From a virus, in the IMG/VR virus record IMGVR_UViG_3300041409_000335, positions 1 through 58,415 of that record: a DNA stretch of 58,415 bases; one strand, given 5' to 3'. The position numbers and the translations under genes were made by a program. The notes below the pieces were generated by a model that worked only from the letters and a program-made list of their open reading frames with translations, was not told where the DNA came from and did no database searches. Positions 5,400 through 55,961 of the stretch are shown here, piece by piece (within the stretch, counting starts at the first letter, position 1; each line of letters begins with the position of its first letter).

Positions 5400-5693
5400 A
5401 TGAAACCCACTCTCAAGCGAATCGGCTTCCTCGTGATCGACAAGTGCGAGGTTCACGAACAGCCGCTCGGACTGGACCTGTCGCCGGACAAGCCCATCGG
5501 GGGAATCTTGGAATGGACGGACGGCCCGCGCACAGTTTTTGAAACACGGGCGGAAGCCAAGAAGGCGATCAACCGGACGGAGCACTACCGGCTCGCGTTC
5601 AACAGCAGCCCCGGACAGCCGGAGAAGAAGTTCTGCGAAATCATTCCGCTGGCCGTCGTCACGCACACCGGGGAGAAGAAGAATGACCCGTGA
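5400..5693 (+). CDS. hypothetical protein (97 aa)
   Basis: First gene of the + strand block, 28 bases after the second TTAATTAAATA. The order of strands and helices (IGFLVIDKCEVHEQP, GILEWTDGPRTVFETRAEAKKAI) suggests a small alpha/beta fold. I do not recognise it. It overlaps the resolvase-like gene by 11 bases. Confidence 0.6.
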   Translation: MKPTLKRIGFLVIDKCEVHEQPLGLDLSPDKPIGGILEWTDGPRTVFETRAEAKKAINRTEHYRLAFNSSPGQPEKKFCEIIPLAVVTHTGEKKNDP

Positions 5694-8134: not shown

Positions 8135-8365
8135 ATGAGTGATTCAAACCGACTCCATGTTCCCGGCCAAGCGCCGAAAGACACTGAACAGCCGCTCAAT
8201 CTTGGGATGACCCATGAAGGCGGCTGTGTGCAGATGACGTTCAACCCGCCCGTGGTCAGGATGCGGCTCCAGCCACGCGAGGCACGCACGCTCGCCATCG
8301 CGCTGCTCAGCCACGCGGACCTTGCCGAGCATCCGCCGATAATCATTCCCCCCTCCGGATCATGA
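8135..8365 (+). CDS. hypothetical protein (76 aa)
   Basis: The second half (PVVRMRLQPREARTLAIALL) is a strand plus a helix, an arrangement seen in many small phage proteins of unknown role. The stop overlaps the next start by ATGA. Confidence 0.55.
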   Translation: MSDSNRLHVPGQAPKDTEQPLNLGMTHEGGCVQMTFNPPVVRMRLQPREARTLAIALLSHADLAEHPPIIIPPSGS

Positions 8366-9159
8366 AGATTCGCAGTCAAAATCTGCGGGAGCGGAAAGGA
8401 GTGCCGTTCGGTTCGATGTTCTGGCACGGCCGGGCGTGGCTCTATGGCAACCCCAAGGAGCTGCTTCGCGTCGAGTGGCTGTTTGGAAGGAACGTGACCG
8501 ACTTCCACGCGGCCGTGACGTTTGGCTACGGCGACTCGGATGGTGGAATCCTCTTTCATCTCGGAATCCCGTGGCTGTTTGCGTTGTACCTCGTCATCCC
8601 AAATGTCTGGCGCATTCGGGAGTCAAAGACTGGCATCGCGATCCACAACACGTCGTTCTGGATCTATCCCTTCGCCGATCAGAACGAGTCACGTCACGAT
8701 CATCCGTGGTGGAAGAAGAGTTACTGCTTTGAATTCCCGTGGAGCTACAAACACCACCTGACTGAGATCCTTGAGCACAAGGCGAACCTGCCCGGACTGG
8801 CCGCAACGATCTGGAACGATAAAGAGAAGGCTTTCCTGGATAGCTACGACGCACGGAAGGCGGCCGAGAAGAGTGTGTCTGAGACGTATGACTACACCTA
8901 CACGCTCAAGAGCGGAGAAGTTCAGCATCGAAAGGCCACTGTTCACGTTGACCGGATGACGTGGCGGATGCGTGGCTGGCCGCTGCTGCCGTTCGACAAG
9001 GTTCAAACGTGCATCTGTGTTTCGTTCGACGGTGAAGTCGGAGAAGGCACCGGCTCCTACAAGGGCGGGACCATCGGCTGCGGGTGGCACATGCTGCCCA
9101 GTGAGACTCCGCTGGAAACTCTTCGCCGCATGGAGCGGGACAGGACTTTCGACCGATGA
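8362..9159 (+). CDS. conserved hypothetical phage protein (265 aa)
   Basis: This is a large soluble-looking protein rich in Trp, His and Tyr, with one hydrophobic patch near residues 68-80 (GIPWLFALYLVI). Segments such as GIAIHNTSFWIYPFADQNES and DHPWWKKSYCFEFPW recall proteins found in many uncultured phages, with no known function. It is coupled by ATGA to both neighbours. The position just before the small membrane protein and the glycosyltransferase island says nothing certain about its role. Confidence 0.6.
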   Translation: MKIRSQNLRERKGVPFGSMFWHGRAWLYGNPKELLRVEWLFGRNVTDFHAAVTFGYGDSDGGILFHLGIPWLFALYLVIPNVWRIRESKTGIAIHNTSFWIYPFADQNESRHDHPWWKKSYCFEFPWSYKHHLTEILEHKANLPGLAATIWNDKEKAFLDSYDARKAAEKSVSETYDYTYTLKSGEVQHRKATVHVDRMTWRMRGWPLLPFDKVQTCICVSFDGEVGEGTGSYKGGTIGCGWHMLPSETPLETLRRMERDRTFDR

Positions 9160-42258: not shown

Positions 42259-43264
42259 GGTATTCTCGGACGCGGAGATCCTCCTGCCACTCGGCCATGT
42301 CGCCGCCCTTGCTGTCCTTGAGCTTCAGCCCGAACTCTTGGCCTTTGAACTTCACGACGACATCCCCCGACAACCACTGACCAAACACGGGCTTCGCACC
42401 GAGCTGCTTCACGAACACGGGCACGCCGGCCGCCCAGCACTGCTTCACGATGCTCCTGATCCATTCCACGTTGCAGGGCCGCGCCTTGTGCCCGCTTTCG
42501 CCGCCGACGATTACCCAGTGGATGTCTTCGAGCGAAGCCCGGCCCAGCCGATGAACCGCATCCGCTCGCTTGCTCACGTCTGAGAATTCCAGCGGGCCAA
42601 GGAGCGGCTCCGCACTGATGAACCTTGTGCGTGCGGGGATTCTAACGAGCTGCTCCATGCGCTCATTGACTCGCGGCTGATCTTCCATCGATGCGCCGAC
42701 GGCGACGTTCTGCGGCGGCCGGCCCTTCAGCCAGTCATCGATCCAATAGAAGACCTTCTCGTCGATGCTGAGCGCCCCGGTTGCAGCTTGGTAGGCGCAC
42801 ACGTTGAGGAGCTGCTTATACCAGTTCTCCGCCCGCTTCGTCAGCAGGAGCCAGTCGATGCTCGGTGTGTCGTGGATGAGCTTGAGGAAGTCGGCGAGCA
42901 CGGCGACGGGTTCGAGCTTCTGGCCGCTCAAGTCGATGATCCCGCCGGGCATGGTGTCGAGCCAGTCGATCATCGATGGGAACCAGCGGCCTCTAGTACC
43001 GCGGGCAGCGTGCATCTTGTTGATCCGGATCGCGTCCACCCAGAAGCCCTTCGATCGTACCCGCGTGGCGCTGTTGCCCCAGACCGGCCGCGTTTCCCAG
43101 TCCGTGAAGCCGGCGTTCTTGTAGGCGCGGCGGAAGAGATTCTCCAGCCGTGACTCCGCCAGCTCCCACGCGTAGCAGTTCACGCATCCGGGGGACACGG
43201 GATGGCAGCCGAAGAAAGGGCCGCCAGTATGATTTGCCCACTCAATTTTTGTTGTGTCGCTCAT
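42236..43264 (-). CDS. DUF5131 (phage Gp37/Gp68) family protein
   Basis: The protein has 342 aa. KIEWANHTGGPFFGCHPVSP with C20, C27 and C30 (C-x6-C-x2-C) and VGGESGHKARPCNVEWIRSI are family signatures. The family is thought to be radical SAM-like, binding an iron-sulfur cluster by the three Cys; its reaction is unknown. Related proteins are often coupled to three-Cys-motif partners. Last gene of the right - strand operon; its 3' end overlaps the giant virion gene by 23 bases on the opposite strand, and its start lies 23 bases inside the ASCH-like gene. Confidence 0.85.
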   Translation of the reverse strand: MSDTTKIEWANHTGGPFFGCHPVSPGCVNCYAWELAESRLENLFRRAYKNAGFTDWETRPVWGNSATRVRSKGFWVDAIRINKMHAARGTRGRWFPSMIDWLDTMPGGIIDLSGQKLEPVAVLADFLKLIHDTPSIDWLLLTKRAENWYKQLLNVCAYQAATGALSIDEKVFYWIDDWLKGRPPQNVAVGASMEDQPRVNERMEQLVRIPARTRFISAEPLLGPLEFSDVSKRADAVHRLGRASLEDIHWVIVGGESGHKARPCNVEWIRSIVKQCWAAGVPVFVKQLGAKPVFGQWLSGDVVVKFKGQEFGLKLKDSKGGDMAEWQEDLRVREYPTALRPG

Positions 43265-43901
43265 AGTGTTTCTTGAATTCGATTGCCCACACGTAGTCGT
43301 TGCGGTCCCAGGAGCCGACGCCGTTGATCGACTCCCACAGCTTGCGGAATGACTCCCTGTAGTTGATCGGGCCGGGCTTGCCCGTGGCCCAAGGAGCCGG
43401 ATAAAAGCCAATGTGTCCGGTAGGCTCAGGCGCTCCCTCCGCGACGGCCCCAGATTCGCCGATGTCGTTGAGCCGCTCCGCCCGAACTTTGACGATCTCG
43501 AGTACGACGCGGGATGCCAGACGCGGCATGAAGAGCGACGGCCGTTTGTGCCAGCCGGTCTTGCCCCTCATCGGTGTCGGCGCGGGCGATTTGAACTGCA
43601 CGCCGAGATCGTGGAGCAGCGGGACGAACTTCCACTTCTGCCGGCCTTTGGCAGTGACTCCGTTGTGCCGCCACTGCCCATACCTCCAGTGAGTCTCCTT
43701 CACCCACAGCAGATCGCCGGGTTGCCCGAACGGATTGTCGAGTTCAGGGAGCCATCCGTTCACCGTGAGAAGCTGGCCGTTCGCACTGGGGACGATGCCA
43801 TACGGCTCCCTGATTTCGCGCCGTGTCTGCGTCTTCGGCATCAGCTCGCGCAGGATGGCCTCGACCATCTCGCTCTTGAAAAGGATCGGCCGCTCTTTCA
43901 T
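43242..43901 (-). CDS. ASCH-like phage protein (219 aa)
   Basis: The N-terminal MKERPILFKSEMVEAILREL, then KTQTRREI, and later GQPGDLLWVKETHWRYG are typical of phage proteins with an ASCH-like fold (often annotated morphogenetic). ASCH domains are beta barrels that bind RNA or modified bases. The C-terminal SWDRNDYVWAIEFK matches the usual end. It overlaps and is co-translated with the DUF5131 gene, a pair also seen in other phages. Confidence 0.75.
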   Translation of the reverse strand: MKERPILFKSEMVEAILRELMPKTQTRREIREPYGIVPSANGQLLTVNGWLPELDNPFGQPGDLLWVKETHWRYGQWRHNGVTAKGRQKWKFVPLLHDLGVQFKSPAPTPMRGKTGWHKRPSLFMPRLASRVVLEIVKVRAERLNDIGESGAVAEGAPEPTGHIGFYPAPWATGKPGPINYRESFRKLWESINGVGSWDRNDYVWAIEFKKHYERHNKN

Positions 43902-44068
43902 TCGCTGATGGCCTCCGCCACGTCGCCGGCATCGCAGTCACTCTTGATCTTCCGCTCGACGCACCGCTGCGCAGTTACCTCGAGTACGAATTCCGTGCTC
44001 TTGTCTTCGTAGTCGTTGTCGGTCTCGTTGAAGACTTCCCTGATTTTACGGAGCATCGTGGCGTTCAC
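43898..44068 (-). CDS. micro protein (56 aa)
   Basis: A GTG start (VNATMLRKIREVFNETD) overlaps the upstream stop, and its stop overlaps the ASCH-like start (ATGA, 43898-43901). Helical, acidic; two Cys at about 33 and 41. No family. The exact fit between overlaps is the evidence that it is real. Confidence 0.6.
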   Translation of the reverse strand: MNATMLRKIREVFNETDNDYEDKSTEFVLEVTAQRCVERKIKSDCDAGDVAEAISE

Positions 44069-44256
44069 AGTTTGATGGGTTTGATGGTTTTCAAGGCTCG
44101 GAAGTAATTGATGGCGGCCGACAGATCGGGCTCTGCGATGTCATTCACCCCGATGCAGTTGTCGGAGATGAGATAGGCATCTTTGAGCAGCAGCATCGCT
44201 TCAGTCTCAGTCAGGTTGAGGCGTCGGATCTCCCGCAGAAGAAGGTGATGGTTCAT
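44065..44256 (-). CDS. small hypothetical protein (63 aa)
   Basis: All-helical (MNHHLLLREIRRLNLTETEA, then LLLKDAYLISD). It could be a small regulator or a cofactor for the primase-helicase whose stop it overlaps by ATGA. No motif supports either. Confidence 0.6.
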   Translation of the reverse strand: MNHHLLLREIRRLNLTETEAMLLLKDAYLISDNCIGVNDIAEPDLSAAINYFRALKTIKPIKL

Positions 44257-45923
44257 TCGTCGGACGGTCTTTCGGTCTTCTCGGTGATGAGCATCCGGCC
44301 GCCGTCCCAGTTGCAGCGGAGCGTTTGCCCGGAGTAGCCACGGGTGTTTTTGTTCACGCGAAGGATCAGCGTGTTGTCCACGTCGTCAGGATCGCGCCAC
44401 GCGCCAATGTGGAGCGCCGCCGAGTTCTCGATCTGGCCGCTGTCCTTGCCGTCGCTCAGTCCGACGGCCGTCGAGGAGCGTGAATCCTTCCGCTGAACCT
44501 GGCTGGCGATGGCGAGCACCGTGCCCGTGTTCTTGGCCATGCTCTTGAGATCGGACATGACCGCCGTGATCTGCTCATACCTTCCCTTGCCGAGCCCTTG
44601 GACGAGCTGCACGTAATCGATGAGGACGAGCACGGGCTTCACTCCCATCTTCAGCTCTGCCCGGCCGACGATTGTCTCGATGCCCTTGGCCGTCAGACCG
44701 GAGGAAGGACACACGTAAATGTTGTTGAGCCAGCCCGATTCGCGCCAGTCCGGCCGGTTGCCGCTGCGGTAGGCGTCCTCAACTTCGTTCTGATTCAGGC
44801 CCATCGTGCCGGCGATGAACCGCTCGAACGTGATCGAGTCGGCCAGCTCCATCTCGAAGAGCAGCACGGGCAGCGGAGCCGCACGCCAGGCCATGTTTTG
44901 AAGGAGCGCCGTCTTGCCGGCTCCCGTCGCCGCGACAAACGTAATGATGTCTCCGGGCATCGATGGACGGATGCGATGTCCGAAAGAGGGCAGCCAAGAT
45001 TTGAACGAGTAGCAGCCTTCCTCGTTGCGCGTCAGCAGCGACTCGTACCGCTGCTCCAGCTCCACCATCGAAAGGATCGGCACCGTCGCGCCATCGACCA
45101 TCACGGCAGCCTTCGCGAACAGCTCGTCGAACGCCTGCTTCTTGCTCTCGTTGTTCCCGTACATGGCGAGGTATTCGCCGATGTCCTTGTGAGGCGGAGG
45201 AACGACGACGTGACGCAGCGACGCGCATTTGCCGTCGAGCGCCTCGATCACCATCGCGACGTGTTTCCGTCCCGGCTCATCGTTGTCGCCACACACCACG
45301 ACAGCCCGGCCCTTGAGCGATTCGCTGTAGCCAGTCATCCACTTGCCCGCGCCTCCGACGTTCGTGGTAGCGATCCAGCCGATCTTCATCAGCAGCTCCG
45401 CGTCCTTCTCGCCTTCGCAGAGCACGACGGGTTTCTCGCCGGCCGCCAGGATGTCGGGGAGGTTGTAGAGCACGCGCTGCACTCCCTCCATTCCCCAGAC
45501 CCATTCAGTCCCGCTCCACTTCTGCTGCTTGAACGTCTTCGGTTCGTAGCGCAGCACTTGAAACACCTTCTCCCCGGTCGCGGACAGATAGACATAGGTC
45601 GCGATCACCTTCCCGGCCGGCTTGCCGGTGTCATGGGAACGCGGGCCGGTGCGTGAGAGTTGATCGGACAGCTCCTTCAGCACTTCCTCGACGGCCTTGC
45701 CCTCATGCTTCGCGATGAAATCGATCACCGACCCACCTGTTGCGCATCCGAAACAGTAGAAGACGTTTTTAGCGACGTTGACCGAAAAACTTGGTGTCTT
45801 TTCGGAATGAAATGGGCAAAGGGCCGTCCTCGTATTGCCAGTGCCGATCAGCTTTACCCCAGCCTTCTCCAACTGTTGAGGAAGTGGGAATGAATCCAGT
45901 ATTTCCTGTCTAGTTACTTGCAC
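44253..45923 (-). CDS. primase-helicase (DnaG/DnaB fusion, T7 gp4-type)
   Basis: The protein has 556 aa. CHC2-type zinc finger CPFH (36-39) and CFGC (57-60) read the template. The Toprim part has EGEKD (170-174) and GDND (212-215) for primer synthesis. The RecA-like hexameric helicase has Walker A ATGAGKT (332-338) and Walker B LIDYVQL (434-440). GTG 45923 was chosen because a strong AAGGAGG lies four bases before it; it overlaps the EndoVII gene upstream by 10 bases. It unwinds DNA and primes lagging-strand synthesis. It is the only recognisable replisome enzyme of the genome. Confidence 0.93.
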   Translation of the reverse strand: MQVTRQEILDSFPLPQQLEKAGVKLIGTGNTRTALCPFHSEKTPSFSVNVAKNVFYCFGCATGGSVIDFIAKHEGKAVEEVLKELSDQLSRTGPRSHDTGKPAGKVIATYVYLSATGEKVFQVLRYEPKTFKQQKWSGTEWVWGMEGVQRVLYNLPDILAAGEKPVVLCEGEKDAELLMKIGWIATTNVGGAGKWMTGYSESLKGRAVVVCGDNDEPGRKHVAMVIEALDGKCASLRHVVVPPPHKDIGEYLAMYGNNESKKQAFDELFAKAAVMVDGATVPILSMVELEQRYESLLTRNEEGCYSFKSWLPSFGHRIRPSMPGDIITFVAATGAGKTALLQNMAWRAAPLPVLLFEMELADSITFERFIAGTMGLNQNEVEDAYRSGNRPDWRESGWLNNIYVCPSSGLTAKGIETIVGRAELKMGVKPVLVLIDYVQLVQGLGKGRYEQITAVMSDLKSMAKNTGTVLAIASQVQRKDSRSSTAVGLSDGKDSGQIENSAALHIGAWRDPDDVDNTLILRVNKNTRGYSGQTLRCNWDGGRMLITEKTERPSDE

Positions 45924-46411
45924 CCTACCTCCTTGTGTTTTTTGAGATACGCAATCGCTGCCTGCAACTTCACTGGATTGTGAGTGAAGGAGCCAAGGCC
46001 AGTGTTGCACGCGCTGCAAAGCAGTTCGCGAACACGGCCAGTTTCCCTATCGTGATCCACTGCAAGTCTCCAAGGAGCTGCATGATCTTGTGAGCCTCCG
46101 CAGATTGCGCACACACCATCCTGCTCCGTGAGCATCTGATCGTAATCGTCGAGCGTGATGCCGTACTTCTGTTTGAGCTTCGTCTTTCTAAATCTCAGCT
46201 TCCATCCTTCCGGATCAGCGTCGCGGCGTCGGCGATAATTGTCCTTCACCCGCTCAGCGTTGTTCTTCCGCCAACGGGCCATCGTCGCATTACGCTTCTT
46301 CTTCACTTCTGGCGGAGCCATGTAGCGACGGTTGTAGGCTTTGATCCTCTCTGGGTTCGCCTTCCTCCATCTCGTTATGGCTGCGATTTTAGCGGCGGAT
46401 GTCTTAGGCAT
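45914..46411 (-). CDS. EndoVII-type HNH endonuclease (copy 1)
   Basis: The protein has 165 aa. The N-terminal 75 residues are basic helices (ITRWRKANPERIKAYNRRY) that bind DNA. The C-terminal domain has CAIC (101-104), VDHD (118-121) and CSACN (132-136): four zinc Cys around the His-Asp catalytic pair of recombination endonuclease VII-like enzymes. In phages these are homing nucleases or junction resolvases. Placed immediately before the primase-helicase gene, it could be a homing insertion. It has near-relatives at 55958 and a truncated one at 47681. Confidence 0.85.
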   Translation of the reverse strand: MPKTSAAKIAAITRWRKANPERIKAYNRRYMAPPEVKKKRNATMARWRKNNAERVKDNYRRRRDADPEGWKLRFRKTKLKQKYGITLDDYDQMLTEQDGVCAICGGSQDHAAPWRLAVDHDRETGRVRELLCSACNTGLGSFTHNPVKLQAAIAYLKKHKEVGCK

Positions 46412-46431
46412 GGATGGTCAGTAAATTGGTT

Positions 46432-46694
46432 TCACGCGGCGGGCTCCATTGTTGGATTGATGAGCCGAATCATAGTACGTTGCCCATCTGCTTCAACCGA
46501 CGTTCCGGTTGCCGCGTGAAAATTAGATGCCGCCCTGCTCCTGACGCCAGGAACGGGGCGAAGGCGGATGAAGAACGCCTTCTTTTCAGAAACAGGGACG
46601 GCAAAAGTATGCACTGCTCCAGCCGCGCCAAGGAGGTACGGCAGGGGATGCCGGTTGAAGAAACGGGCCGGACGCAGTGCAAAAATGATTTCAT
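46432..46694 (-). pseudogene. small protein gene with apparent -1 frameshift
   Basis: The start (MKSF, ATG 46694) has a strong AAGGAG five bases before it and overlaps the upstream stop by ATGA. In that frame the product after residue 5 is low quality and ends at 46470. One frame back, from a T5 run at codons 4-5, the sequence continues as FALRPARFFNRHPLPYLLG and reads sensibly to 46432 (about 87 aa). A -1 shift or one missing T at the homopolymer would join them. It may be a base-calling error, a real mutation or programmed frameshifting. Confidence 0.5.
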
Positions 46695-46984
46695 TGATAC
46701 TCCTTCTCCCAGTTGCCGGGCTCACCTTCGCGGCTGCTTCGCCACATGGTTTCAGCCCAGGCCGTGGAGCCATCGGGAATGGGAGCGCCGCACGAGTCAC
46801 ACATGATGCTCGGCAGGCTTTCGACGTTGGTGACTTTGCCATCGATGAGCGTCGTCACGTCATGCACGGCCGGCTTCTTCACCGTGATCTGAACACGTCG
46901 GCGCTTGAACCCCATCGACACGTCCTCCGCGTGCATCGGCCGGAGATGCTGGCCGCACTTCTCGCAGTTGATTCGTCGAGTCAT
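46691..46984 (-). CDS. zinc-ribbon protein (97 aa)
   Basis: CEKC (residues 7-10) near the start and CDSC (62-65) later, separated by beta strands (RRRVQITVKKPAVHDV), are a classic two-knuckle zinc ribbon. The end is acidic/Trp-containing. Function unknown; ATGA-coupled on both sides. Confidence 0.65.
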   Translation of the reverse strand: MTRRINCEKCGQHLRPMHAEDVSMGFKRRRVQITVKKPAVHDVTTLIDGKVTNVESLPSIMCDSCGAPIPDGSTAWAETMWRSSREGEPGNWEKEYQ

Positions 46985-47337
46985 TTGGCTGCGCGGAGGG
47001 TTGCGAGCTGTTCCTGGAGCGCCTTGATCTCGCCTTCGATGCGTTCGACTTCCTTGCGCTGATGCTCCTCACGTTCACGGATGATCCGCTCGCTCTTGTG
47101 ATGCTCGGTCTCGCTCGGAATGGCCGTGAAGCGCCGGTCACCTGTTCCTGACGGCTGCACCGTCATGTGATCGAACCCCATCCGCTGTCCGAGTTCAGCC
47201 CACGCGTCGTTTGCCCGCTCCTGCTGGCTCCGTCCCGGCCCGTGCTGGAGCATGATCATCGGGACGGGTTTGCAGGCTTCGAGGATTCGTTCGAGATCCT
47301 CTTCGGTCATTTCGTAGTTGGTGCGCGGGTAGTTCAT
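46981..47337 (-). CDS. conserved phage protein with C-terminal coiled coil (118 aa)
   Basis: LQHGPGRSQQERANDAWAEL, then GFDHMTVQPSGTGDRRFTAI is a combination I recall in many phages next to recombination genes. Residues 75-115 are a charged coiled coil. Function unknown; it probably assists the exonuclease/annealing genes further upstream. Confidence 0.65.
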   Translation of the reverse strand: MNYPRTNYEMTEEDLERILEACKPVPMIMLQHGPGRSQQERANDAWAELGQRMGFDHMTVQPSGTGDRRFTAIPSETEHHKSERIIREREEHQRKEVERIEGEIKALQEQLATLRAAK

Positions 47338-47684
47338 TTCGGACCTTTCTTCAGATGCTTCTTGGCAGCCTCTTTCACCTTGCGGAGAAACTCATGCTCA
47401 TCCGGCTGCGTTGGATGATCACGACAGACCGGCGTGCCGGCCTTGAGGTACTGGCGGGAGAGCTTCACTTCAAACATGCACTTGTCCAAGTTGGCCGCCT
47501 TGAACCGCACGACGCACGTCCAGTGAGTCTTCGACTGCTTCCCACAGAGCCCACACGGCACGCTGCTCTGGTAGCGGACGAAGCGAAGGCAGGCCGTCGT
47601 GAGTTCGCTGAAGCCCTTGTTTTTCCGCGCCTCGAAGTACTGGCGCGGGACACCGCTGTCGTTTTCTCGAATGGCTTTTCTCAT
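47334..47684 (-). CDS. Cys-containing conserved protein (116 aa)
   Basis: It starts at MRKAIRENDSGVPRQYF, chosen because ATG 47684 overlaps the upstream stop (ATGA). CGLC (44-47) and a later CRDH suggest a zinc site. Arg/Lys-rich helices at the end. A longer upstream start (47792) would overlap the truncated nuclease gene by 112 bases and is less likely. Confidence 0.6.
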   Translation of the reverse strand: MRKAIRENDSGVPRQYFEARKNKGFSELTTACLRFVRYQSSVPCGLCGKQSKTHWTCVVRFKAANLDKCMFEVKLSRQYLKAGTPVCRDHPTQPDEHEFLRKVKEAAKKHLKKGPK

Positions 47685-47914
47685 CGGTTGCGGAGTCGCC
47701 AGTTCAGTTGGCATATTTTGTTTCGTTGCGGATGGCGCTGCCGCCATTTCTGGCGGTGTAGCCTCTTCCGTGGTTTGTGGCTCTTGCTCCACGCGGCAAT
47801 CCTCCGCTTCGTAGCTGGCTTAGCATTGTGACGTTTGGAGTAGAGCTTAACCTTTTCAGGGTGCGCCTTTCTCCACTTCACGATGTAAGCCAGCTTGCGA
47901 GCGGTAGTCTTCAA
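47681..47914 (-). CDS. truncated EndoVII-like protein (N-terminal part only, 77 aa)
   Basis: From a TTG start overlapping the exonuclease stop (TTGA 47911-47914), the 77 residues (KTTARKLAYIVKWRKAHPEK) align with the basic N-terminal helices of the EndoVII protein at 45914 (KTSAAKIAAITRWRKANPER). The catalytic zinc domain is missing; the chain ends at an ATGA overlap with the next gene. It is either a decayed homing nuclease or a free DNA-binding module. Confidence 0.55.
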   Translation of the reverse strand: MKTTARKLAYIVKWRKAHPEKVKLYSKRHNAKPATKRRIAAWSKSHKPRKRLHRQKWRQRHPQRNKICQLNWRLRNR

Positions 47915-48672
47915 ACCGGGAAATAGTCTGTGTCTTCCTTCCAGTACTTCAGCAGGCCGAGAAAGAGATCGTGATAATACTCCGGGGGCTTGGGCCATTC
48001 GTAGCAACCGAGGACCGCCGGCCCTTTGCTGCTCAGTGCGATGCTGATGAGCACTTCCGGCATCGGCTGGATCGCGCCGGCATAAGCGCCGAGCTGCACA
48101 CTCCAGTTTGAGTAGTAGGTGAACTTGCCCTTCTTCTTCGTCACGTCCTGAGTCTTCACGTCCATGCACGCAATGCGGCCGTCGATGAGCTGAGCAACGT
48201 GATCGACGCGTCCAGCGTAGCCTTGGCCGATCACCGACTTCTCAACCATCAGGGAGCGCACGACGTTCTTCTGGTACCAGCCGACGTAGGCGTGGAACTG
48301 CGGGAGCATCGGATCGCCGGGGTGAACCAAGGTTGAAGCCTCCACCGCCAGCTTCTCCGGGGGCACCTTCGTTGCCCGCTCATGGAAGCTCTGGCAAAGG
48401 GAGTGGAAGTCACCGCCGAGATCGCGGGCCGCCTGGCCGTGCTCGTCGGCGTACTTGCAGCAGCGGTCAAAGTAATCGTCGTCGCTCTCGTTTGGCAGCC
48501 GCGTGGTTGTCGCCGTGGACTCGAACATCTGCTTTCGGAAGTAGTACTTGAGCGCCGGGCTTCCGAGCACGTTCAAGACAGTCGTGGGCGATGGCAGTGC
48601 ATTGACCTTCCTCGCGTCTCTGAGATTTCCGTCGATCAACTCACCCGTGTTTTTATCGTAAAAATGACTCAT
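47911..48672 (-). CDS. PD-(D/E)XK exonuclease
   Basis: The protein has 253 aa. The core GRVDHV (154-159, Asp157) and MDVKT (170-174, D171-x-K173) is the PD-(D/E)XK metal site; the helix SVQLGAYAG (Q193, Y197) is the QxxxY motif of the RecB/Cas4/lambda-exonuclease group. It would resect double-strand ends to give single strands for the annealing protein encoded at 49083-50666. The two are separated by an HNH gene. ATGA overlap with that HNH gene sets the start. Confidence 0.85.
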   Translation of the reverse strand: MSHFYDKNTGELIDGNLRDARKVNALPSPTTVLNVLGSPALKYYFRKQMFESTATTTRLPNESDDDYFDRCCKYADEHGQAARDLGGDFHSLCQSFHERATKVPPEKLAVEASTLVHPGDPMLPQFHAYVGWYQKNVVRSLMVEKSVIGQGYAGRVDHVAQLIDGRIACMDVKTQDVTKKKGKFTYYSNWSVQLGAYAGAIQPMPEVLISIALSSKGPAVLGCYEWPKPPEYYHDLFLGLLKYWKEDTDYFPV

Positions 48673-49079
48673 ACTGTTTTCTTCTTCTGTTGTTGGTGAT
48701 GCCTCCTGCAAAGCCATCTGACATTGAGTGGCTTTGAGTAGTTATCGTGGTGTGCTTCTGTCCGTACATTGCCGCAAACCTCACAAGGCTTGCTGATTAG
48801 TTCTCCTCTGCGTCTGGCATTTCGACACAGTTGCCGTGCCCGCATCCTCTTCGGCCAGCGAGCCAATTTCGTTTCGTGATACCGTCTCTGCTTTGTTGGG
48901 TTTCGTTTCGCATAGTCAGCGCGGTACTGCATGAAGTGTGTCTTCCGTTTCAGGAAGTTGACGGTTCGTTCCTTCTTGGAGCATTCACAGCATTCACTTC
49001 GCAGCAGTCTGGTACCCGAACGCTTGTAGAAATTCTTAAGCGTCTTCTCCTCGCCGCATTTTCTGCACTTCTTGAACAT
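48669..49079 (-). CDS. HNH-type zinc endonuclease (homing candidate)
   Basis: The protein has 136 aa. N-terminal CRKC (5-8) and CECS (31-34) form a treble-clef zinc finger; basic helices follow; the end has CEVC (99-102), EAHHDNYS (108-115) and WLCRRHH (122-128), an HNH-like beta-beta-alpha metal site. Such genes move into phage operons as homing nucleases. Here it splits the annealing-protein gene from its exonuclease. It starts three bases after the upstream stop. Confidence 0.75.
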   Translation of the reverse strand: MFKKCRKCGEEKTLKNFYKRSGTRLLRSECCECSKKERTVNFLKRKTHFMQYRADYAKRNPTKQRRYHETKLARWPKRMRARQLCRNARRRGELISKPCEVCGNVRTEAHHDNYSKPLNVRWLCRRHHQQQKKKTV

Positions 49080-49082
49080 AGG

Positions 49083-50666
49083 TCAGAATGGAACGTCGTC
49101 GTTGTCTGGCCCCTTGGGATCTATCGCCTCACGCTCCGTTGTCGTTTTCTCCGCGTCCATGTGCTTCCGGGCTTCCTCGCAGGCTGCCGCGAACTTCACC
49201 GACTCTGCCGACGGCGGCCGGCCCTGATACGGCTCGGCCGTGAAGTTCTTCACGACGCCAAACCAGTATTTGTTGTCGAGGCGGGCAAGCTGTCCGAGCG
49301 TCTTCCCCTTGTAGGTTTTCTTGGCCGCGTCCTTGGGAGCGAACGGGAGCTTGGCGAACATCCATTCATGCTCCTCGTAGTCTTCCTTGTTGGGATCGGC
49401 TTCCTGCCATTGCGTGCCGCACGACTTGCACCAGACGACGCCGATGAGATCCTCATGCTTCGTGATCGCCGTCGAGTTGCAGGCAGGGCAGCCGACAGCC
49501 TTGGGTGTAGGCGCGGGCTTGGCCGGCGGAGTGGCCGGGGGCAGAGGCATGGCCACAAACCCGCGCTGAACCTCCTCCATGAATTCCGGGGGGCAGTTCG
49601 ACGCCATCGCATAGACCGCGCCTCGATGCTTCTCGGCCAGCGACTTCACGCTCTCCTTGAAATTTGCACGGTCGAATCCCTCGAACATCTTCGCCGGCTG
49701 AGCATCGGCCAGGCTCTCGTTCGGGAGAATCCAGGCGGCATCCGTGCCGTACTTCCACCAGGCCCATTCATCGTCGGGAGTGATGAGCGTGAGGAGCCGC
49801 GCCTTGCAAGCTGCAAGGAACGATGCCCATTCCTCCTCACTCGTGACTTTGGCAGGAGTCGCAGGAGCCTTGGCTGCCGTAGCGGCTTGGGGGGCAGGAG
49901 CCGGTTTCGCAGCTTGCGCCGGTCTCTGAGGGGTAGGCGCGGCCGGTCGCTCTGCGGGGCGTTTAGGAGGGTGATCGTCAGCCGGCGGCCCGTCGTCGTC
50001 GCCAATGTCTTGAGTCAGGAAGTCGGAAGAGGCTGTAGCCGTGATGGTAGCGTCCACGAATGCCCGCTTTTTGGCCATCTTGAGCACCGTGTTGTAGTAA
50101 TCGGCCGGGCTGTCGTGCTCAACCTTCTCGACGGACTGGCTTTCGATCACCTTCGCCCCATCCTCCCACTTCGCGCCGCATCCGCCCTTCTTGGCGAAGC
50201 AGAGCCATCCGCCGCCGTATTCGGCCTTGCCCTTGATGATCGTCTCCTTGCCGCATTCCGGGCACTTCCGCGCCCCTCCCTTCCAACGGTATTTGCCCTC
50301 AAGGGTTGTGCAGCAGCCGACGCCTTGGCCGACAAAGTTGCCGGACTGGATGGACTTGAGCGTGCAAATTACCCGGTACTCCTTGTGCCCCCGCTCATGG
50401 TTCGTCTCCTGAATGTGATACTCAGGGGCCAGCCGGAACGTCATGGTGAGCTTTTGGGCTCCGGGCTGGAGCAGCGTCTTGCGGTCACCGCAGCCGGGCA
50501 CGGTGCCGTAATGCACGCCTTCCTGCATCACCTTGGCCATCACGTCTTGGATGAGCCGGACTTGCTGGAGGATGTCGGCAACGGCCATCGCGTTGTCCTG
50601 AGGACGCGTGACGGCCGTTTGCTGGTGTTGTGGCACAATGGCCATGTCGGTAGGTTGATCGCTCAT
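49083..50666 (-). CDS. single-strand annealing-type recombination protein
   Basis: The protein has 527 aa. Residues 30-200 (VMAKVMQEGVHYGTVPGCG, then LLQPGAQKL) belong to a family I recall beside exonucleases in many phages, with Rad52-like annealing as the best guess. A Cys4 knuckle (KCPECGKE ... LCFAKKGGC) is inserted. A Pro/Ala linker is followed by a helical domain, a second Cys4 ribbon (CPACN ... WCKSC) and a YKGKTLGQLARLDNKYW module. The last residues, NDDVPF, mimic the acidic tip of bacterial SSB that recruits host repair proteins. With the exonuclease downstream it makes a two-part recombination system. Confidence 0.6.
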   Translation of the reverse strand: MSDQPTDMAIVPQHQQTAVTRPQDNAMAVADILQQVRLIQDVMAKVMQEGVHYGTVPGCGDRKTLLQPGAQKLTMTFRLAPEYHIQETNHERGHKEYRVICTLKSIQSGNFVGQGVGCCTTLEGKYRWKGGARKCPECGKETIIKGKAEYGGGWLCFAKKGGCGAKWEDGAKVIESQSVEKVEHDSPADYYNTVLKMAKKRAFVDATITATASSDFLTQDIGDDDGPPADDHPPKRPAERPAAPTPQRPAQAAKPAPAPQAATAAKAPATPAKVTSEEEWASFLAACKARLLTLITPDDEWAWWKYGTDAAWILPNESLADAQPAKMFEGFDRANFKESVKSLAEKHRGAVYAMASNCPPEFMEEVQRGFVAMPLPPATPPAKPAPTPKAVGCPACNSTAITKHEDLIGVVWCKSCGTQWQEADPNKEDYEEHEWMFAKLPFAPKDAAKKTYKGKTLGQLARLDNKYWFGVVKNFTAEPYQGRPPSAESVKFAAACEEARKHMDAEKTTTEREAIDPKGPDNDDVPF

Positions 50667-50669
50667 AAG

Positions 50670-51392
50670 TCAGTTGAATCCGTTAATGAATTTCCGCATC
50701 GCCTCCCTGTCGTGAGCTTCCCGCTGATCGGCCATCATCAGCGACATTCCGAGCTGGATCGCAATGTGGCCTTCCGTCTCCGGGTGTTTGCCCAAGTCGC
50801 TGCCCATCGAGGCGAAGGCATTCCTGCACGCATCGCGCACGTCTCCGCGCCGGTTGAGTTCCTCCAAGGCGCGTTTCTTACACCATTCCAAATGCTGAGC
50901 CCGCGTCTCGACCTTCGTCACGGTCACCGATCCATCCGGCGTCGCCACCGGCCCGCCCGGCCCGTCGCCCGTTATCACCTCGAAAATCTTTGCGCCAACT
51001 TCCATCGCCCGCGCCACGGCCGCGTTGCTCTTCTTGTCCTCCATGTCCTTCAGCAGCTTCGCCCAGCGTTCAGCCGGCGGAGTGGTGTTGGTCTTGTCCG
51101 CCAGCTCCTTCACCAGTTCAACGGCCTCTTTCGGCGTCTCGAATGTCAGCGTCGCATAGGTGGAGTCGAACTCGTCATCGTTGTCCTCCAAGAATTGCGG
51201 GTGCTTCGAGAAATCGGGCATGTAGCTCTCGCGGTTACCGCCGCCGTTGCGGGTGTAAATGTAGATCCGCGTCCCGTCATCCGACGGGTAGCAGTCGCGG
51301 AAGCGCCCGCAGTCTTCCGTCTTCAGATCGAGCAGAGTTAGGAAGATGGCCGCGTTCGGGGTGCGGCCAAAAAGCATGTTGTAGAGGCTCAT
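50670..51392 (-). CDS. conserved phage protein (MSLYNMLFG type, 240 aa)
   Basis: It begins MSLYNMLFGRTPNAAIFL, then GRFRDCYPSDDGTRIYIYTR and NGGGNRESY. I recall this start in many phages, always of unknown function. Later segments are helical, with a GDGPGGPVATPDG loop. It is ATGA-coupled to the 134-aa gene and lies three bases before the annealing-protein gene. Confidence 0.7.
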   Translation of the reverse strand: MSLYNMLFGRTPNAAIFLTLLDLKTEDCGRFRDCYPSDDGTRIYIYTRNGGGNRESYMPDFSKHPQFLEDNDDEFDSTYATLTFETPKEAVELVKELADKTNTTPPAERWAKLLKDMEDKKSNAAVARAMEVGAKIFEVITGDGPGGPVATPDGSVTVTKVETRAQHLEWCKKRALEELNRRGDVRDACRNAFASMGSDLGKHPETEGHIAIQLGMSLMMADQREAHDREAMRKFINGFN

Positions 51393-51793
51393 GGTTTTTT
51401 GGGGTTGAGGATTACGAAGTAAGGCATGGAGCCGGGGAACGCTCGCCACATGGAGCGCGGCATCACCCACCTTCCCAGGCCCAGGCCCATAGCCATCACA
51501 AAGAGCTGCTCAATGTGGACGTGCTCGCCCCATTGATCCCCGCGCTGCGTGACGCACGCCTGAAGGAAGCTCCATCCTCCGCCCTTGGCCTCTTGGAATT
51601 CTTCGGGCAGCTCGTTGAGCAGCTCTGTGACTTCGGCCCGATGGCTCTCAAGACGGACGGGGTGAAGCCCGTACCTGTTGACCACTCCTTCGACGAGCAC
51701 CATGCCAGCGGGCGGGCCGCCAGCCGTCTCCTCTTCGGTGAAAAGGCAGTCCAGGAAGATCGCATTCACCGCATCGGCAGTCAGTGTGCTCAT
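51389..51793 (-). CDS. hypothetical protein (134 aa)
   Basis: From MSTLTADAVNAIFLDCLF, acidic N-terminal half with ELPEEFQEA, then GGGWSFLQACVTQRGDQWGE, an aromatic/Gly region shared with other phage proteins of unknown role. Start by ATGA overlap. Confidence 0.6.
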   Translation of the reverse strand: MSTLTADAVNAIFLDCLFTEEETAGGPPAGMVLVEGVVNRYGLHPVRLESHRAEVTELLNELPEEFQEAKGGGWSFLQACVTQRGDQWGEHVHIEQLFVMAMGLGLGRWVMPRSMWRAFPGSMPYFVILNPKKP

Positions 51794-52146
51794 GTGAGTC
51801 GCTCGCTGATCTTTGGTTGCTCCGTCTCTCCAAGGATGAATTCGACATCGATCACCGCTCCGCTTTCGAGCGCGTCGAAATTCTCCATCAGGTGAAGATG
51901 CGCGACGTGAAAGGTGCGCGGGTTCACTCCCCAGGAAAACGCATCGTAAGTCGCGTTGCGATCCACGCCGGAACATTCCATCCGGCAGAGCACGATGCAG
52001 GGATCATCGAACCCGAAACCGGCGCGGCGCAAAAGGAATGCCTCTGCGACGGGCTGATCCGGCGTGTGCGCAGATGGCACCATCTTGATCGCAATGACGG
52101 GAATGAACGTCCCGCGATCCCTCAGCTCGAAAGCCTTAGTGATCAT
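51790..52146 (-). CDS. hypothetical conserved protein (118 aa)
   Basis: It starts MITKAFELRDRGTFIPVIAI, followed by AFLLRRAGFG and CIVLCRMECSG, and a HVAHLHLMENFDAL segment. I recall this pattern in uncultured phages only. An alpha/beta fold is likely. Coupled by ATGA on both sides. Confidence 0.6.
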   Translation of the reverse strand: MITKAFELRDRGTFIPVIAIKMVPSAHTPDQPVAEAFLLRRAGFGFDDPCIVLCRMECSGVDRNATYDAFSWGVNPRTFHVAHLHLMENFDALESGAVIDVEFILGETEQPKISERLT

Positions 52147-52334
52147 TTGGAGATCTCCTCCGGGCGATGTTCGCGCCAGTCAACGTCGCCATCCCAGTCG
52201 AAGGCGATGAAATCGGCGACATCGATGCGGCGCACGGTGATCGTCCCGCAGTTTGCGCCATGTTGATCGAAGAGGGTGAACCCGCAGTGCTGCGGGTTGC
52301 AGTAGGTACAGCGCAGGGTGAATTTCTTTCTCAT
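52143..52334 (-). CDS. small Cys protein (63 aa)
   Basis: MRKKFTLRCTYCNPQHCGF (C9-x2-C12, C17) with a later Cys can bind zinc; the tail is acidic/Trp-containing (FDWDGDVDWREH). Unknown role. Start set by ATGA. Confidence 0.6.
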   Translation of the reverse strand: MRKKFTLRCTYCNPQHCGFTLFDQHGANCGTITVRRIDVADFIAFDWDGDVDWREHRPEEISK

Positions 52335-52561
52335 GCTTTTGGTCTTTCGGGCTTGGGCTTTCTTTCGGTGTTCCACGGCGGGCCGCTGAAATGATGCTGC
52401 TGAAATGCGACGAGCAAAGCGGCTCCTCCTTTGAGCTTCGCTGCTTCAGTGACGAGCCGGGCCGACTCTGCCGCGCCTCGTTTCCAGACGGATTTATCGT
52501 CGCTCATCTGGTGAAACCAGTCGTGTCGATCAAGCTGATCGTACAGCTCGACGAGAGTCAT
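52331..52561 (-). CDS. small helical protein (76 aa)
   Basis: MTLVELYDQLDRHDWFHQM suggests a HxxW-type helical hairpin; the C terminus is Lys/Pro-rich and basic. No family recognised. ATGA overlap with both neighbours. Confidence 0.55.
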   Translation of the reverse strand: MTLVELYDQLDRHDWFHQMSDDKSVWKRGAAESARLVTEAAKLKGGAALLVAFQQHHFSGPPWNTERKPKPERPKA

Positions 52562-52839
52562 GGCGTCTCCTTGTCGATCATCTCCCGCAGAAGCCTGCCC
52601 GCTTCACTGCGCTCTGCGTCCAATGCTTCGAGACGGGCCAAGGCAGCGCGACAGGTGGCGATCAGATCGTCGTGCGTGTTCCAGCAGTGAGCGAGGCGTC
52701 GCGCATTGGCTTCGCGCTGTTCAGCAGGAGCCTCATACCCGCCATCGTCTTCAATCGTCGCGATGCAAAACTTGTCGTCGGAAGTAACCAGGCTGCTGCC
52801 GGACACAACGAGCATCCCCGCAGTGTGCGCCGCGCTCAT
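52558..52839 (-). CDS. hypothetical protein (93 aa)
   Basis: It begins MSAAHTAGMLVVSGSSLV, a beta-rich start followed by REANARRLAHCWNTHDDLIA and a charged coiled end. The pair ANARR/C-W-N-x-H-D-D-L is common in phage and plasmid proteins of unknown function. Start by ATGA at 52839. Confidence 0.6.
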   Translation of the reverse strand: MSAAHTAGMLVVSGSSLVTSDDKFCIATIEDDGGYEAPAEQREANARRLAHCWNTHDDLIATCRAALARLEALDAERSEAGRLLREMIDKETP

Positions 52840-53201
52840 GATCCGCAGATGGTGCAAATGGTTGAGCCTTCAACGTAGGAATGCTGGCAGGGCTCCCCGG
52901 CTGAAGATGAGAGAGGGATTTCGGGGAGGTTCTTCACTTCGGCCAGCGAGGCTAGAATGTTTTCCTCGATCTCCTTGGATGCCCTGGCCGCGAACTTCGT
53001 GAGCACGGGGCCAATGTAGTTCAGAAGTTGGGCGGAGATGTCGGGGTGAAGAACCATCTTCAAATCGCTTTTGTTGCGATCCTCGTAGGCGATGGTTGCG
53101 ACGTACTGCCCGGCGTTGTCGGAGTACGATGGCTGAAGTTCAATGGACAGGAGGCGGAGTTTCATGGGGTGCGGGGGGGTTGTTGGTTGAATGATCGTCA
53201 T
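52836..53201 (-). CDS. hypothetical protein after the structured RNA (121 aa)
   Basis: First gene after the folded RNA (53221-53301), starting 12 bases after its U tract. Beta-rich start (MKLRLLSIELQPSYSDNAGQ; also a possible start at 53165), then a helix and a terminal CTICGS. A zinc pair with CQHS near the end is possible. It may be controlled by the RNA in front of it. Function unknown. Confidence 0.6.
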   Translation of the reverse strand: MTIIQPTTPPHPMKLRLLSIELQPSYSDNAGQYVATIAYEDRNKSDLKMVLHPDISAQLLNYIGPVLTKFAARASKEIEENILASLAEVKNLPEIPLSSSAGEPCQHSYVEGSTICTICGS

Positions 53202-53208
53202 GGTCTTT

Positions 53209-53305
53209 TTCTAAAAAGCGGTGCGGTTGTTTAGAGGCAAAGACACGCGGGACGAACCGCTGAATAAACCTTTGGGGCGTTGCCGCTTCCCACAACCGCA
53301 CTGCG
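53209..53305 (-). ncRNA. structured RNA / leader element with terminator-like end
   Basis: On the - strand GUGCGGUUGU (53301-53292) pairs perfectly with ACAACCGCAC (53230-53221). Inside, GGG-AA-GCG-GCAA-CGC-CCC makes a stem with a GNRA tetraloop, and AAAG/CUUU plus GCGG/CCGC make a second arm. The 3' side continues CGC-UUUUU (53213-53217), so the closing stem also looks like an intrinsic terminator. The gene at 53201 begins 12 bases later. The fold fits a small RNA or a riboswitch-like attenuator. Confidence 0.65.
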
Positions 53306-53310
53306 AAAGC

Positions 53311-53339
53311 ACTGTATTTAATTAAGAACCGTTTTGCAA
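53311..53339 (-). promoter_or_regulatory. promoter of the structured RNA, with TTAATTAAATA motif
   Basis: TTGCAA (53334-53339) and TACAGT (53311-53316) are separated by exactly 17 bases on the - strand. The predicted start, about 7 bases after TACAGT, is near 53304, at the foot of the RNA's closing stem. The spacer/-10 contains TTAATTAAATA (53315-53325). The 15-mer TTAATTAAATACAGT is identical to the one at 57811-57825. Confidence 0.65.
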
Positions 53340-53528
53340 GGAGAGAATAATTTTTTTCTCCGGCTCAACGAGCGTGTTCAGGATTTTCCGGGCCAGTTCG
53401 GGATCGCGTTTGATCCGCCCTTCAAGCTCCCAGCAACGATCACAACGCTTCGTACCTGTCATCGTCGTGGACTTGCCGCACACCCCGCAGGGCACCGTCG
53501 GTTTTTTGCAGTTGGTTTTCATTTTCAT
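53322..53528 (-). CDS. zinc-finger-type small protein (68 aa)
   Basis: Starting at MKMKTNCKKPTVP, it has CGVC (14-17) and CDRC (29-32), a clear zinc ribbon, followed by a helix (RIKRDPELARKILNTLV). Ribosome site GGTGG ahead of ATG 53528. Its stop lies inside the TTAATTAAATA motif. Confidence 0.7.
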   Translation of the reverse strand: MKMKTNCKKPTVPCGVCGKSTTMTGTKRCDRCWELEGRIKRDPELARKILNTLVEPEKKIILSLQNGS

Positions 53529-53650
53529 AGTGAATTCCACCGGATGGCGTTACCGACCGCCGACAGCCTGTGATCCGGGCGGCCGGATACCTCCATTGTC
53601 CGCGCAGCAGGCTTGAACCCGTGACGTGAAGGAGTGCTTTTGCAATTCAT
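53525..53650 (-). CDS. micro protein (41 aa)
   Basis: ATG 53650, behind GAGG, begins a 41-residue basic product (MNCKSTPSRHGFKPAARTME). Its stop overlaps the next start by ATGA (53525-53528). The coupling is the only evidence; function unknown. Confidence 0.5.
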   Translation of the reverse strand: MNCKSTPSRHGFKPAARTMEVSGRPDHRLSAVGNAIRWNSL

Positions 53651-53679: not shown

Positions 53680-55479
53680 TCATCTGGTAATCACGCAGAT
53701 CGCCGTGTTGACCATCGTCCCGGATTCTTTGAAGGCTCCGGGCTCAAGCTCGATCCACTCGTCGCAGATCGGCTGAAGCTCTTCCTGCTGCCGTGGTCCG
53801 TTCGCGCAGATGGCGACGAGACGGCCGCCAGGCTTCAGCATCGTCAGCGCGTGCCGAATGTGGGCGATGTCCGCGCCGCGCTCAAACGGAGGATTCATCA
53901 CGATGCGATCCACGGGCCAGTTGCCACGGCTGAACGTGAGGAAGTCCGCACAATGGATCGGAGTGATCGGGAACTCACCTTTCAAACGCTTCACCAGCTC
54001 GGCGTTGATCTCCACGGCCACGGGCAGGCCGTCGCCTTGTTTGCAGATCGCAGTCAGAATGTTCCCCGTGCCCGCGCTCGGCTCGAGTACAACCATTTTC
54101 GGCCTGATGTCAGCCAGGGCAACGAGGCGCTCAGCCAGGGCCGGGGGAGTGGGAAACAACTGGTGAGAGACGACGACTTGCACGCCAGCCTTGAGCGTGG
54201 CCCGCATCGCGTCGATAGCTTCGCCCGTCTCTTCGGCTGCCGCGTCCTTCACCGGCTCGGCCTTGGGCTTGGGTGGCGTGGCGTCCGCCAGTTCAAAGGC
54301 GCGGGCAGTCTCGGCACGAACGCGCCCTTGCAGCCGGGCAATATCCACGTCGGCCTTGCTCATTATTCCGGCCAGCTTGTCGAACGGGATTATCCGGGTG
54401 AAGTCACGCGTGGGCGATCCGTCCGCGTTTGTGTTTCCCCAGTTGTCCAGGAGCGTCACTGAAACCTTGTTCACCTTCTGGATCTTGCTCCATCCCCGGT
54501 TTACCAAGCATCGGCACGCACCGCCCACTTCAGGGCCGATCTTGTCCGCCACTGTACCACCATCGGCCGCGAGCATGGCTCTTTCGTACGCCAGGCGGTG
54601 ATCGTAGTGCGACACCCAGCGGGCATGACGTGCGTTCGCTGCGGTGTAAACCTTCTCGGCCTTCAGCCGGCATTCCTCGACAGTCATCGATGGGCAGTCG
54701 CGGTACCTTTCGCCGTCTGGCTTGAGCACATCCCACGCGGACCAAAACTGGTTCAATGTGGGATGACGGCAGACGCCAGGATTGCCAGGGCGCGTCAGGT
54801 TGCCCAGGGCGCTGCAAACCTCCACCCTGTTCTCCTCGCTGATGACGAGGGGGCGAGTCTCGCCCGTCGTCCTGCTCTTCAGCTTCAGTTCGCCGCGCCA
54901 GAAGCGCAGCGCATATTCGCCGTCGTCAATGCACTTCACCCGCTTGCGCTTGTCCGCCTCAATGCCCTTGATCCGCCGGGCGCGAACGTCCGGCCGCTCC
55001 TTGTAGCTCGCGGCACGCACGGCACCGGCCGCCCGGCTCTTCCAGTATTCGGACTGCTCCCACATTTTCACCGTGCGTCTCATCCCGTTTTCGATCCGCT
55101 CGGCGTCCTTCCGGGCGTGCTTCTCGCTGTGATGTCCGACAAGGATCGGCTGTCCGAAAGGAATGTGACTGGCGATGGCGTCCACGCTCTTGCGTGCCCG
55201 CTCCGCGTCCTCCCGTCGGTTGTCGCTGTACTCGTCGAACCGCTCGGCGCGTTGCTCGGCGCGTTCGGCAAGCGTGGTGTCCTCGTCGCCCACTTCGCCG
55301 CATAGCTCAAGAAGCAGATCCTCCCGCTCCGGCGTCCACATGGGCGCAACGAAAAGCTCCTGCTTCGGTGCCCATTTGAACCCGTGGGCTTTTACCTTGG
55401 CGTATGTTTCCGGATCGAGCCGCTCGGTTGAGTAGAGGCGCAGCTTGTTGTCGTCTGGTGAATAAGTCGCTGTCGTCAT
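53680..55479 (-). CDS. DUF3560 - N6-adenine methyltransferase fusion (599 aa)
   Basis: Residues 1-190 match the DUF3560 region of mobile-element proteins (GFKWAPKQELFVAPMWTPER, charged coiled stretch, then FGQPILVGHHSEKHARKDAE). Residues 444-599 are a class I methyltransferase: EPSAGTGN (466-473) binds SAM and NPPF (529-532) is the catalytic motif of adenine-N6 or similar amino-methyltransferases. It probably methylates phage or host DNA, protecting it from restriction. Start ATG 55479 overlaps the upstream stop by ATGA. Confidence 0.85.
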   Translation of the reverse strand: MTTATYSPDDNKLRLYSTERLDPETYAKVKAHGFKWAPKQELFVAPMWTPEREDLLLELCGEVGDEDTTLAERAEQRAERFDEYSDNRREDAERARKSVDAIASHIPFGQPILVGHHSEKHARKDAERIENGMRRTVKMWEQSEYWKSRAAGAVRAASYKERPDVRARRIKGIEADKRKRVKCIDDGEYALRFWRGELKLKSRTTGETRPLVISEENRVEVCSALGNLTRPGNPGVCRHPTLNQFWSAWDVLKPDGERYRDCPSMTVEECRLKAEKVYTAANARHARWVSHYDHRLAYERAMLAADGGTVADKIGPEVGGACRCLVNRGWSKIQKVNKVSVTLLDNWGNTNADGSPTRDFTRIIPFDKLAGIMSKADVDIARLQGRVRAETARAFELADATPPKPKAEPVKDAAAEETGEAIDAMRATLKAGVQVVVSHQLFPTPPALAERLVALADIRPKMVVLEPSAGTGNILTAICKQGDGLPVAVEINAELVKRLKGEFPITPIHCADFLTFSRGNWPVDRIVMNPPFERGADIAHIRHALTMLKPGGRLVAICANGPRQQEELQPICDEWIELEPGAFKESGTMVNTAICVITR

Positions 55480-55961
55480 GGTGTCGTTTTTTCTAGGGAT
55501 GGGGCGTGGACTTTGAAGGAACGCGCAGCCAGGGGGACGCCTGGTACCCGGACTGACGTTTGCAGCTTCTCAAGCCGCGTCTGAAATTCAGTAAGTGCGA
55601 AAACGGTGTTTCGGATCACGTAGGTTGAGCCGTTCGCCGCAATGGTCACCTTGGGCTTTTCCGCGTCCGGCTCAACCGGCGCGTTGCCCAGCGCATCGGC
55701 AACGAGGTTGAGCAGCTCCCGCTTTACCGCCAGCGCGTGATCGACTGCTGGCGCGGGCTTGGGCGCTCTCACCTTGGGCACCTTGGGCGCTGCGGGCTTG
55801 CGTGGTGTCTTCGGCTTCGCCGGCCGTGGCGTTGCCCTTTCCGGCATCGCGACTAGCACAACCGCAGCCGGCGAAGTGTGACGGCTTTTGTCCGCCAGCG
55901 TTTCGGGCTTCAGCAGATCCCATTTCACAAGGAGCGCGTGAAGCCAGGAGATGGTTTTCAT
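55476..55961 (-). CDS. basic Pro/Lys/Ala-rich protein (161 aa)
   Basis: Start at MKTISWLHALLVKW (ATG 55961, overlapping the EndoVII stop). Residues 35-75 are a histone-H1-like Pro/Ala/Lys tract (KPKTPRKPAAPKVPK). The C-terminal part is alpha/beta. It may bind DNA or RNA non-specifically. ATGA-coupled to the methyltransferase. Confidence 0.55.
   Translation of the reverse strand: MKTISWLHALLVKWDLLKPETLADKSRHTSPAAVVLVAMPERATPRPAKPKTPRKPAAPKVPKVRAPKPAPAVDHALAVKRELLNLVADALGNAPVEPDAEKPKVTIAANGSTYVIRNTVFALTEFQTRLEKLQTSVRVPGVPLAARSFKVHAPSLEKTTP

Follow-up and report, generated by a model that had tools for sequence, protein, structure and literature searches.

A structured RNA of ∼85 nt, which folds into a three-way junction and begins at the first transcribed bases of its own predicted promoter, lies on the - strand in front of a long early operon of an uncultured phage and is retained in three related phages between genes that have been exchanged. 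The sequence that we examined, referred to in what follows as the window, is a virus record of 58.4 kb. From the comparisons described below the RNA is a real element without an earlier catalogue entry, and we think it rather probable that it is a cis-acting structured 5' leader, transcribed from its own phage promoter, whose loops serve for recognition by a protein or RNA polymerase and whose action extends over the whole operon. The fold, the strand that serves as RNA, the conservation of the promoter and the position as a leader are supported by comparison of the four phages, and from these we infer action in cis, action on the complete operon and the kind of binding partner.

Promoter and RNA occupy a 120-nt gap on the - strand between a zinc-ribbon-like gene (53322-53540) and the gene for a 121-aa protein, and no tRNA was found. 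Behind the RNA are ∼10 kb of co-directional early genes, including those for recombination and replication (Table 1), and a search for terminator-like sites on the - strand from 43 to 58 kb found none. Elsewhere in the window the gene at 8362-9159 (+) matches the Pfam family Acb3, a CBASS inhibitor, with E 8e-34 and is probably an anti-defence gene, and the product of 53680-55479 (-), which has relatives in 14 viral contigs, joins DUF3560 to a methyltransferase-like domain. Five large proteins of the late region (18936-42258, +; 450-1432 aa) are without a PHROGs match, and four of them, also run against Pfam, gave no match there; this is consistent with an unsampled phage lineage.

Table 1. 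Positions of the features discussed, in window coordinates unless another contig is named, and records of the homologous contigs.
Feature	Position	Strand	Remark
-35 hexamer TTGCAA	53334..53339	-	identical in all four phages
-10 hexamer TACAGT, 17-nt spacing	53311..53316	-	all four phages have TACA
Motif TTAATTAAATA, overlapping spacer and -10	53315..53325	-	five exact copies in the window
Three-way junction	53221..53301	-	fold z about -3 and P1 covariation
Closing helix P1, perfect 10 bp	53301-53292/53230-53221	-	five pairs with double compensatory changes
Arm P2, GGG-AA-GCG-GCAA-CGC-CCC	53274..53291	-	GCAA tetraloop invariant
Arm P3/P4	53235..53271	-	weak P3, internal loop with conserved UCUU, then P4
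P3, AGGU/GCCU	53271-53268/53238-53235	-	one pair with double changes; weak
P4, GCGG-UUCGUC-CCGC	53260-53247	-	hexaloop invariant; 3 of 4 pairs with double changes
A-rich start-proximal motif UUUUUAGAAAAAGACC	53202..53217	-	TAGAAAAA at 53213-53206; no conserved terminator
First gene after the leader	52836..53201	-	121 aa; no known family, no Pfam family
Rest of co-directional operon	43242..52857	-	76-aa gene, 527-aa protein, exonuclease, primase/helicase
PD-(D/E)XK exonuclease	47911-48717	-	operon member
Primase/DnaB-type helicase	44253-46019	-	operon member
Leftward-promoter leader, hairpin region	57800-57746; L132 3311-3385; L138 7232-7305; L164 5495-5570	- (window)
Homologous contig L138 (= L020 = L163)			IMG/VR 3300036869_000039
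Homologous contig L132 (= L165)			IMG/VR 3300045284_000200
Homologous contig L164 (= L216)			IMG/VR 3300005546_000006

The RNA spans about 53302-53220 on the - strand. A first-pass annotation of this DNA had described a perfect stem of 10 bp enclosing a GNRA-capped arm (GCG-GCAA-CGC within GGG/CCC), and both are present, with RNAfold returning the same junction for the window copy at -38.3 kcal/mol (z = -3.2, none of 200 shuffled sequences being equally stable). The second arm had been drawn as AAAG/CUUU followed by GCGG/CCGC; the latter helix, P4, has strong comparative support, whereas the former is better replaced by AGGU/GCCU, albeit a weaker helix. Searches of Rfam 15 with the window copy and its three relatives gave no family that reaches its gathering threshold, the best match below threshold (E 1.5) being to the opposite strand, so that the earlier impression of an RNA without a matching family holds.

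Three further contigs with the RNA, all from uncultured phages, were found through neighboring proteins and DNA patterns, giving a comparison sample of n=4 sequences, two of them close, each from IMG/VR or from a virus record of that kind. A covariance model run over the whole records places one copy of the RNA in each of the four genomes; in more distant phages that have only the methyltransferase in common the model finds no copy, nor does the R3 covariance model in 25 further records, which have in common with the four either the 527-aa protein alone or no more than a weak primase match. An exact 26-nt search of viral contigs gave no match and no relatives were obtained with the first downstream protein as query, while the methyltransferase or the primase-helicase as query led to distant relatives only. 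Looser DNA-pattern scans of viral contigs gave at least one new copy among the matches listed and otherwise refound the others, and the same kind of scan of genome contigs gave no copy among the matches listed; further copies of the RNA may exist.

The most direct evidence for the fold comes from the pattern of substitutions. A model built from three copies, with L164 left out, recovers the L164 copy with E 1.8e-9 and aligns it through structure, and it is this alignment that was used, P4 of L164 having been misaligned by MAFFT. Over the 96 cells given by 24 pairs in four copies 96.9% hold standard pairs (100% in P4), as compared with just 38-52% for control structures slid along the alignment, and double compensatory changes occur at 10 of the 24 pairs (P1, five; P4, three; P2 and P3, one each), figures that should not be over-read with an alignment fitted to the structure and only four sequences. 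The covariation score was not reached by any of 500 shuffles, RNAalifold on the same alignment predicts the same junction with 11 compensated pairs, and each copy folded alone gives the same P1-closed junction, with z values of -3.0, -2.6, -5.3 and -3.3. Compensatory changes are thus found across the homologues, as the first-pass annotation had proposed looking for, and they argue that the RNA fold is under selection. Seven cells hold G-U and two hold A-C, an excess that points to the - strand as the RNA. Between the window and L164 identity is 50% at paired positions (24/48) and 68% at unpaired ones (25/37), as would be expected if the loops are recognized, and the GCAA and UUCGUC loops are unchanged in all four phages.

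The promoter had been read as TTGCAA-17-TACAGT on the - strand with a start near 53304, and both hexamers are found at this spacing. Taken alone the sequence matches the consensus at 8 of 12 positions and falls under the scan threshold; what makes the call credible is conservation across phages, the four having TTGCAA-17-TACAnn in common, and not the consensus score by itself. In each phage P1 begins within ∼3 nt of the +1 position predicted from the -10 hexamer (∼53304 in the window). The motif TTAATTAAATA has five exact copies in the window versus 0.02 expected, distributed over three promoter-type gaps (5328/5362 on the + strand, 53315 on the - strand and 57811/57833 on the + strand), often paired and flanking a TTGC/TTGA -35 element. 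Further sites lie at 3365, 7199 and 7220 of L138 and at 3280 and 3300 of L132; at both corresponding sites of L164, for which the motif is listed at 5470, it is replaced by TTAATAAAATA. The same change at separate L164 sites suggests a single trans-acting regulator. We regard TTAATTAAATA as the probable binding site of a phage regulator, and its sites as a candidate phage regulon of one putative DNA-binding protein.

The conserved block, ∼137 nt in length, comprises the promoter, the RNA and an A-rich stretch before the start codon, and similarity ends sharply where the flanking genes are unrelated (window 53342-53206 compared with L132 5360-5490). The same island emerges from L138 9340-9485 and L132 5351-5496, which are 93% identical, with the promoter at one limit, AGAAAAA at the other and unrelated genes outside. 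Upstream, the zinc-ribbon gene is found in the window and in L138, and unrelated genes take its place in L132 and L164; downstream, the first gene belongs to the 121-aa family in the window and L132 and to an unrelated 154-aa type in L138 and L164. The operon core, consisting of the 76-aa gene, the 527-aa protein and the PD-(D/E)XK exonuclease, is common to all four phages. Since the genes on either side have been swapped between phages, the RNA element behaves as a portable cassette. A separate block of 41 nt that contains CCACCTAACCCACCATAGAAAAAGACACATGAAAACGAC is identical in L132 (4509-4549) and L164 (6285-6325), phages that are otherwise diverged, and spans the start codon of different genes, as another exchanged start-region cassette would.

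The 3' end of the RNA is a part of the first-pass annotation that comparison does not support. The terminator-like CGC-UUUUU that it had noted after P1 is confined to the window, the homologues having CCUUUAG or ACUUUAG, and the U tract belongs to a motif, TAGRAAAA(G/C)GAC, that precedes early-gene starts in all four phages. In each of them TAGRAAAA or TAGAGAAA, mostly with (G/C)GAC after it, is located 3-11 nt before the ATG of several early genes, and in the window AGAAA occurs in 12 of 82 start regions versus ∼1.3 expected from controls. All four copies of the RNA directly precede a start codon and its TAGAAAAA motif, the start region is mostly unpaired in three of the four predicted folds, and the sequence architecture in all four phages fits a transcript that would continue into the downstream start codon. 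Because the U tract is not conserved and forms part of the start motif, the RNA is most likely a 5' leader beginning at +1 rather than a terminated small RNA, and the best reading of the tail is a translation-start region. The motif is also found at genes without the RNA, for example at 55495 and 57759 (-), and this counts against the leader reading. TAGRAAAA(G/C)GAC itself (window 53213, 55495 and 57759 on the - strand; L165, L138 and L216) may be a non-Shine-Dalgarno start motif or be bound by a translational regulator. A hairpin is also present in the leader of the leftward promoter (Table 1), with a loop, AAUAAC, common to L132 and L138, followed by the TAGRAAAA/TAGAGAAA motif.

The first-pass annotation had offered a small regulatory RNA or an attenuator or riboswitch for the operon, and of these suggestions a cis element for the operon is the better-supported half. 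A trans-acting phage small RNA, ended after P1 by termination or processing and either pairing through UUCGUC or binding a host protein, we consider unlikely. It would account well for a conserved promoter of its own, for a compact and stable fold from +1 that could be cut out to act in trans, for the higher conservation of unpaired than of paired bases between the two most distant copies, for independence of both neighboring genes and, in the window, for P1 followed by UUUUU; yet the three relatives are without a conserved terminator and in all four phages the block runs on into the start-proximal motif. Several starts had suggested pairing of the UUCGUC loop with GACGAA at start codons, an idea that was abandoned as the hexaloop complements GACGA/ACGAA are found at 13% of start regions and at 13% in controls. 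As the lead interpretation a terminator or small RNA is rejected on the 3' ends of the relatives together with the start motif.

An attenuator or intrinsic terminator in which P1 would be the terminator stem, and which would act on transcripts arriving from near 57.8 kb, where the upstream promoter lies, is improbable. The window does have a GC-rich stem of 10 bp followed by CGC-UUUUU, but the relatives have UUU only, the stem encloses ∼60 nt, the U tract is that of the start motif, no alternative antiterminator fold was seen and no alternative terminator hairpin is conserved. Slightly harder still to sustain is a riboswitch that senses a ligand, or a translational operator recognized by the first downstream gene's product, to which the adjoining start codon and the conserved unpaired bases might seem to point: the same RNA stands before first genes of two unrelated families, no association with metabolite genes is consistent, three of four folds leave the start region mostly unpaired and Rfam holds no match, so that nothing speaks for the riboswitch that had been proposed. 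Although some hairpins are expected in any GC-rich sequence, a chance hairpin of a GC-rich phage, without function, is scarcely credible given ten compensated pairs in four phages and a whole cassette conserved between unrelated genes, and no tool result here favors it.

We favor the operon-wide leader because the first gene varies while the operon core does not, and a leader at +1 with invariant loops and a mostly unpaired start region fits such a role in cis. Transcription would start no more than ∼3 nt from where P1 begins, and the new 5' end would at once be locked into the three-way junction, with P2 capped by GCAA and P3/P4 by UUCGUC, after which the A-rich, mostly unpaired start region and the first gene of the long early operon would follow. 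The invariant loops are probably bound by a protein or by RNA polymerase, such that the leader would act on the operon as a whole, either by modifying the elongating polymerase, as does the put RNA of HK022, or by shielding the transcript at its 5' end. With an architecture unlike that of put and no terminators visible in the operon, a role in shielding the 5' end or in binding a phage protein is about as likely as a put-like effect. The more specific proposal of a new class of promoter-proximal RNA that makes RNA polymerase processive, put-like in function, unrelated in its three-way-junction fold and carried as a portable cassette in an uncultured phage lineage, is accordingly tentative and, in our estimate, rather unlikely.

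By analogy of position, the closest parallel is putL of HK022, which lies directly downstream of PL, has its first pair at A3 and acts over at least 10 kb (Nat Commun 2022, PMC9378689). The put RNAs, found at both early promoters, consist of two adjacent stem-loops and a triplex, no helix enclosing them, and provide protein-free antitermination through the zinc-binding domain of the RNA polymerase beta' subunit. Like putL, the RNA described here is a promoter-proximal phage RNA of ∼70-85 nt from the first transcript bases, before a long early operon; unlike put, it has a 10-bp helix enclosing two arms in all four copies, is present once per genome rather than at both early promoters, and has no visible terminators downstream. 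In 5' leaders of the ompA type a 5'-terminal stem stabilizes the mRNA. The present RNA resembles this arrangement in opening with a helix at its very 5' end and in having an unpaired region for ribosome binding after it, but the invariant loops and the three-way junction exceed what simple 5'-end protection needs. Ribosomal-protein leader RNAs, which are cis-regulatory leaders in Rfam, likewise place a junction RNA directly upstream of an operon start codon; here there is no Rfam match and, with the first gene swapped, no autoregulating product is apparent.

What emerges is a compact family of RNAs that covariation supports and Rfam 15 does not contain, in a phage lineage with almost no annotated structural genes, and a precisely defined cassette of operator/promoter, RNA from +1 and start motif. 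If RNA polymerase is indeed what the leader acts on, the RNA would be a second and structurally unrelated solution to the task of the put RNA; should it prove to be a 5' shield or an operator instead, it would still offer a defined point of access to the control of early genes in uncultured phages.
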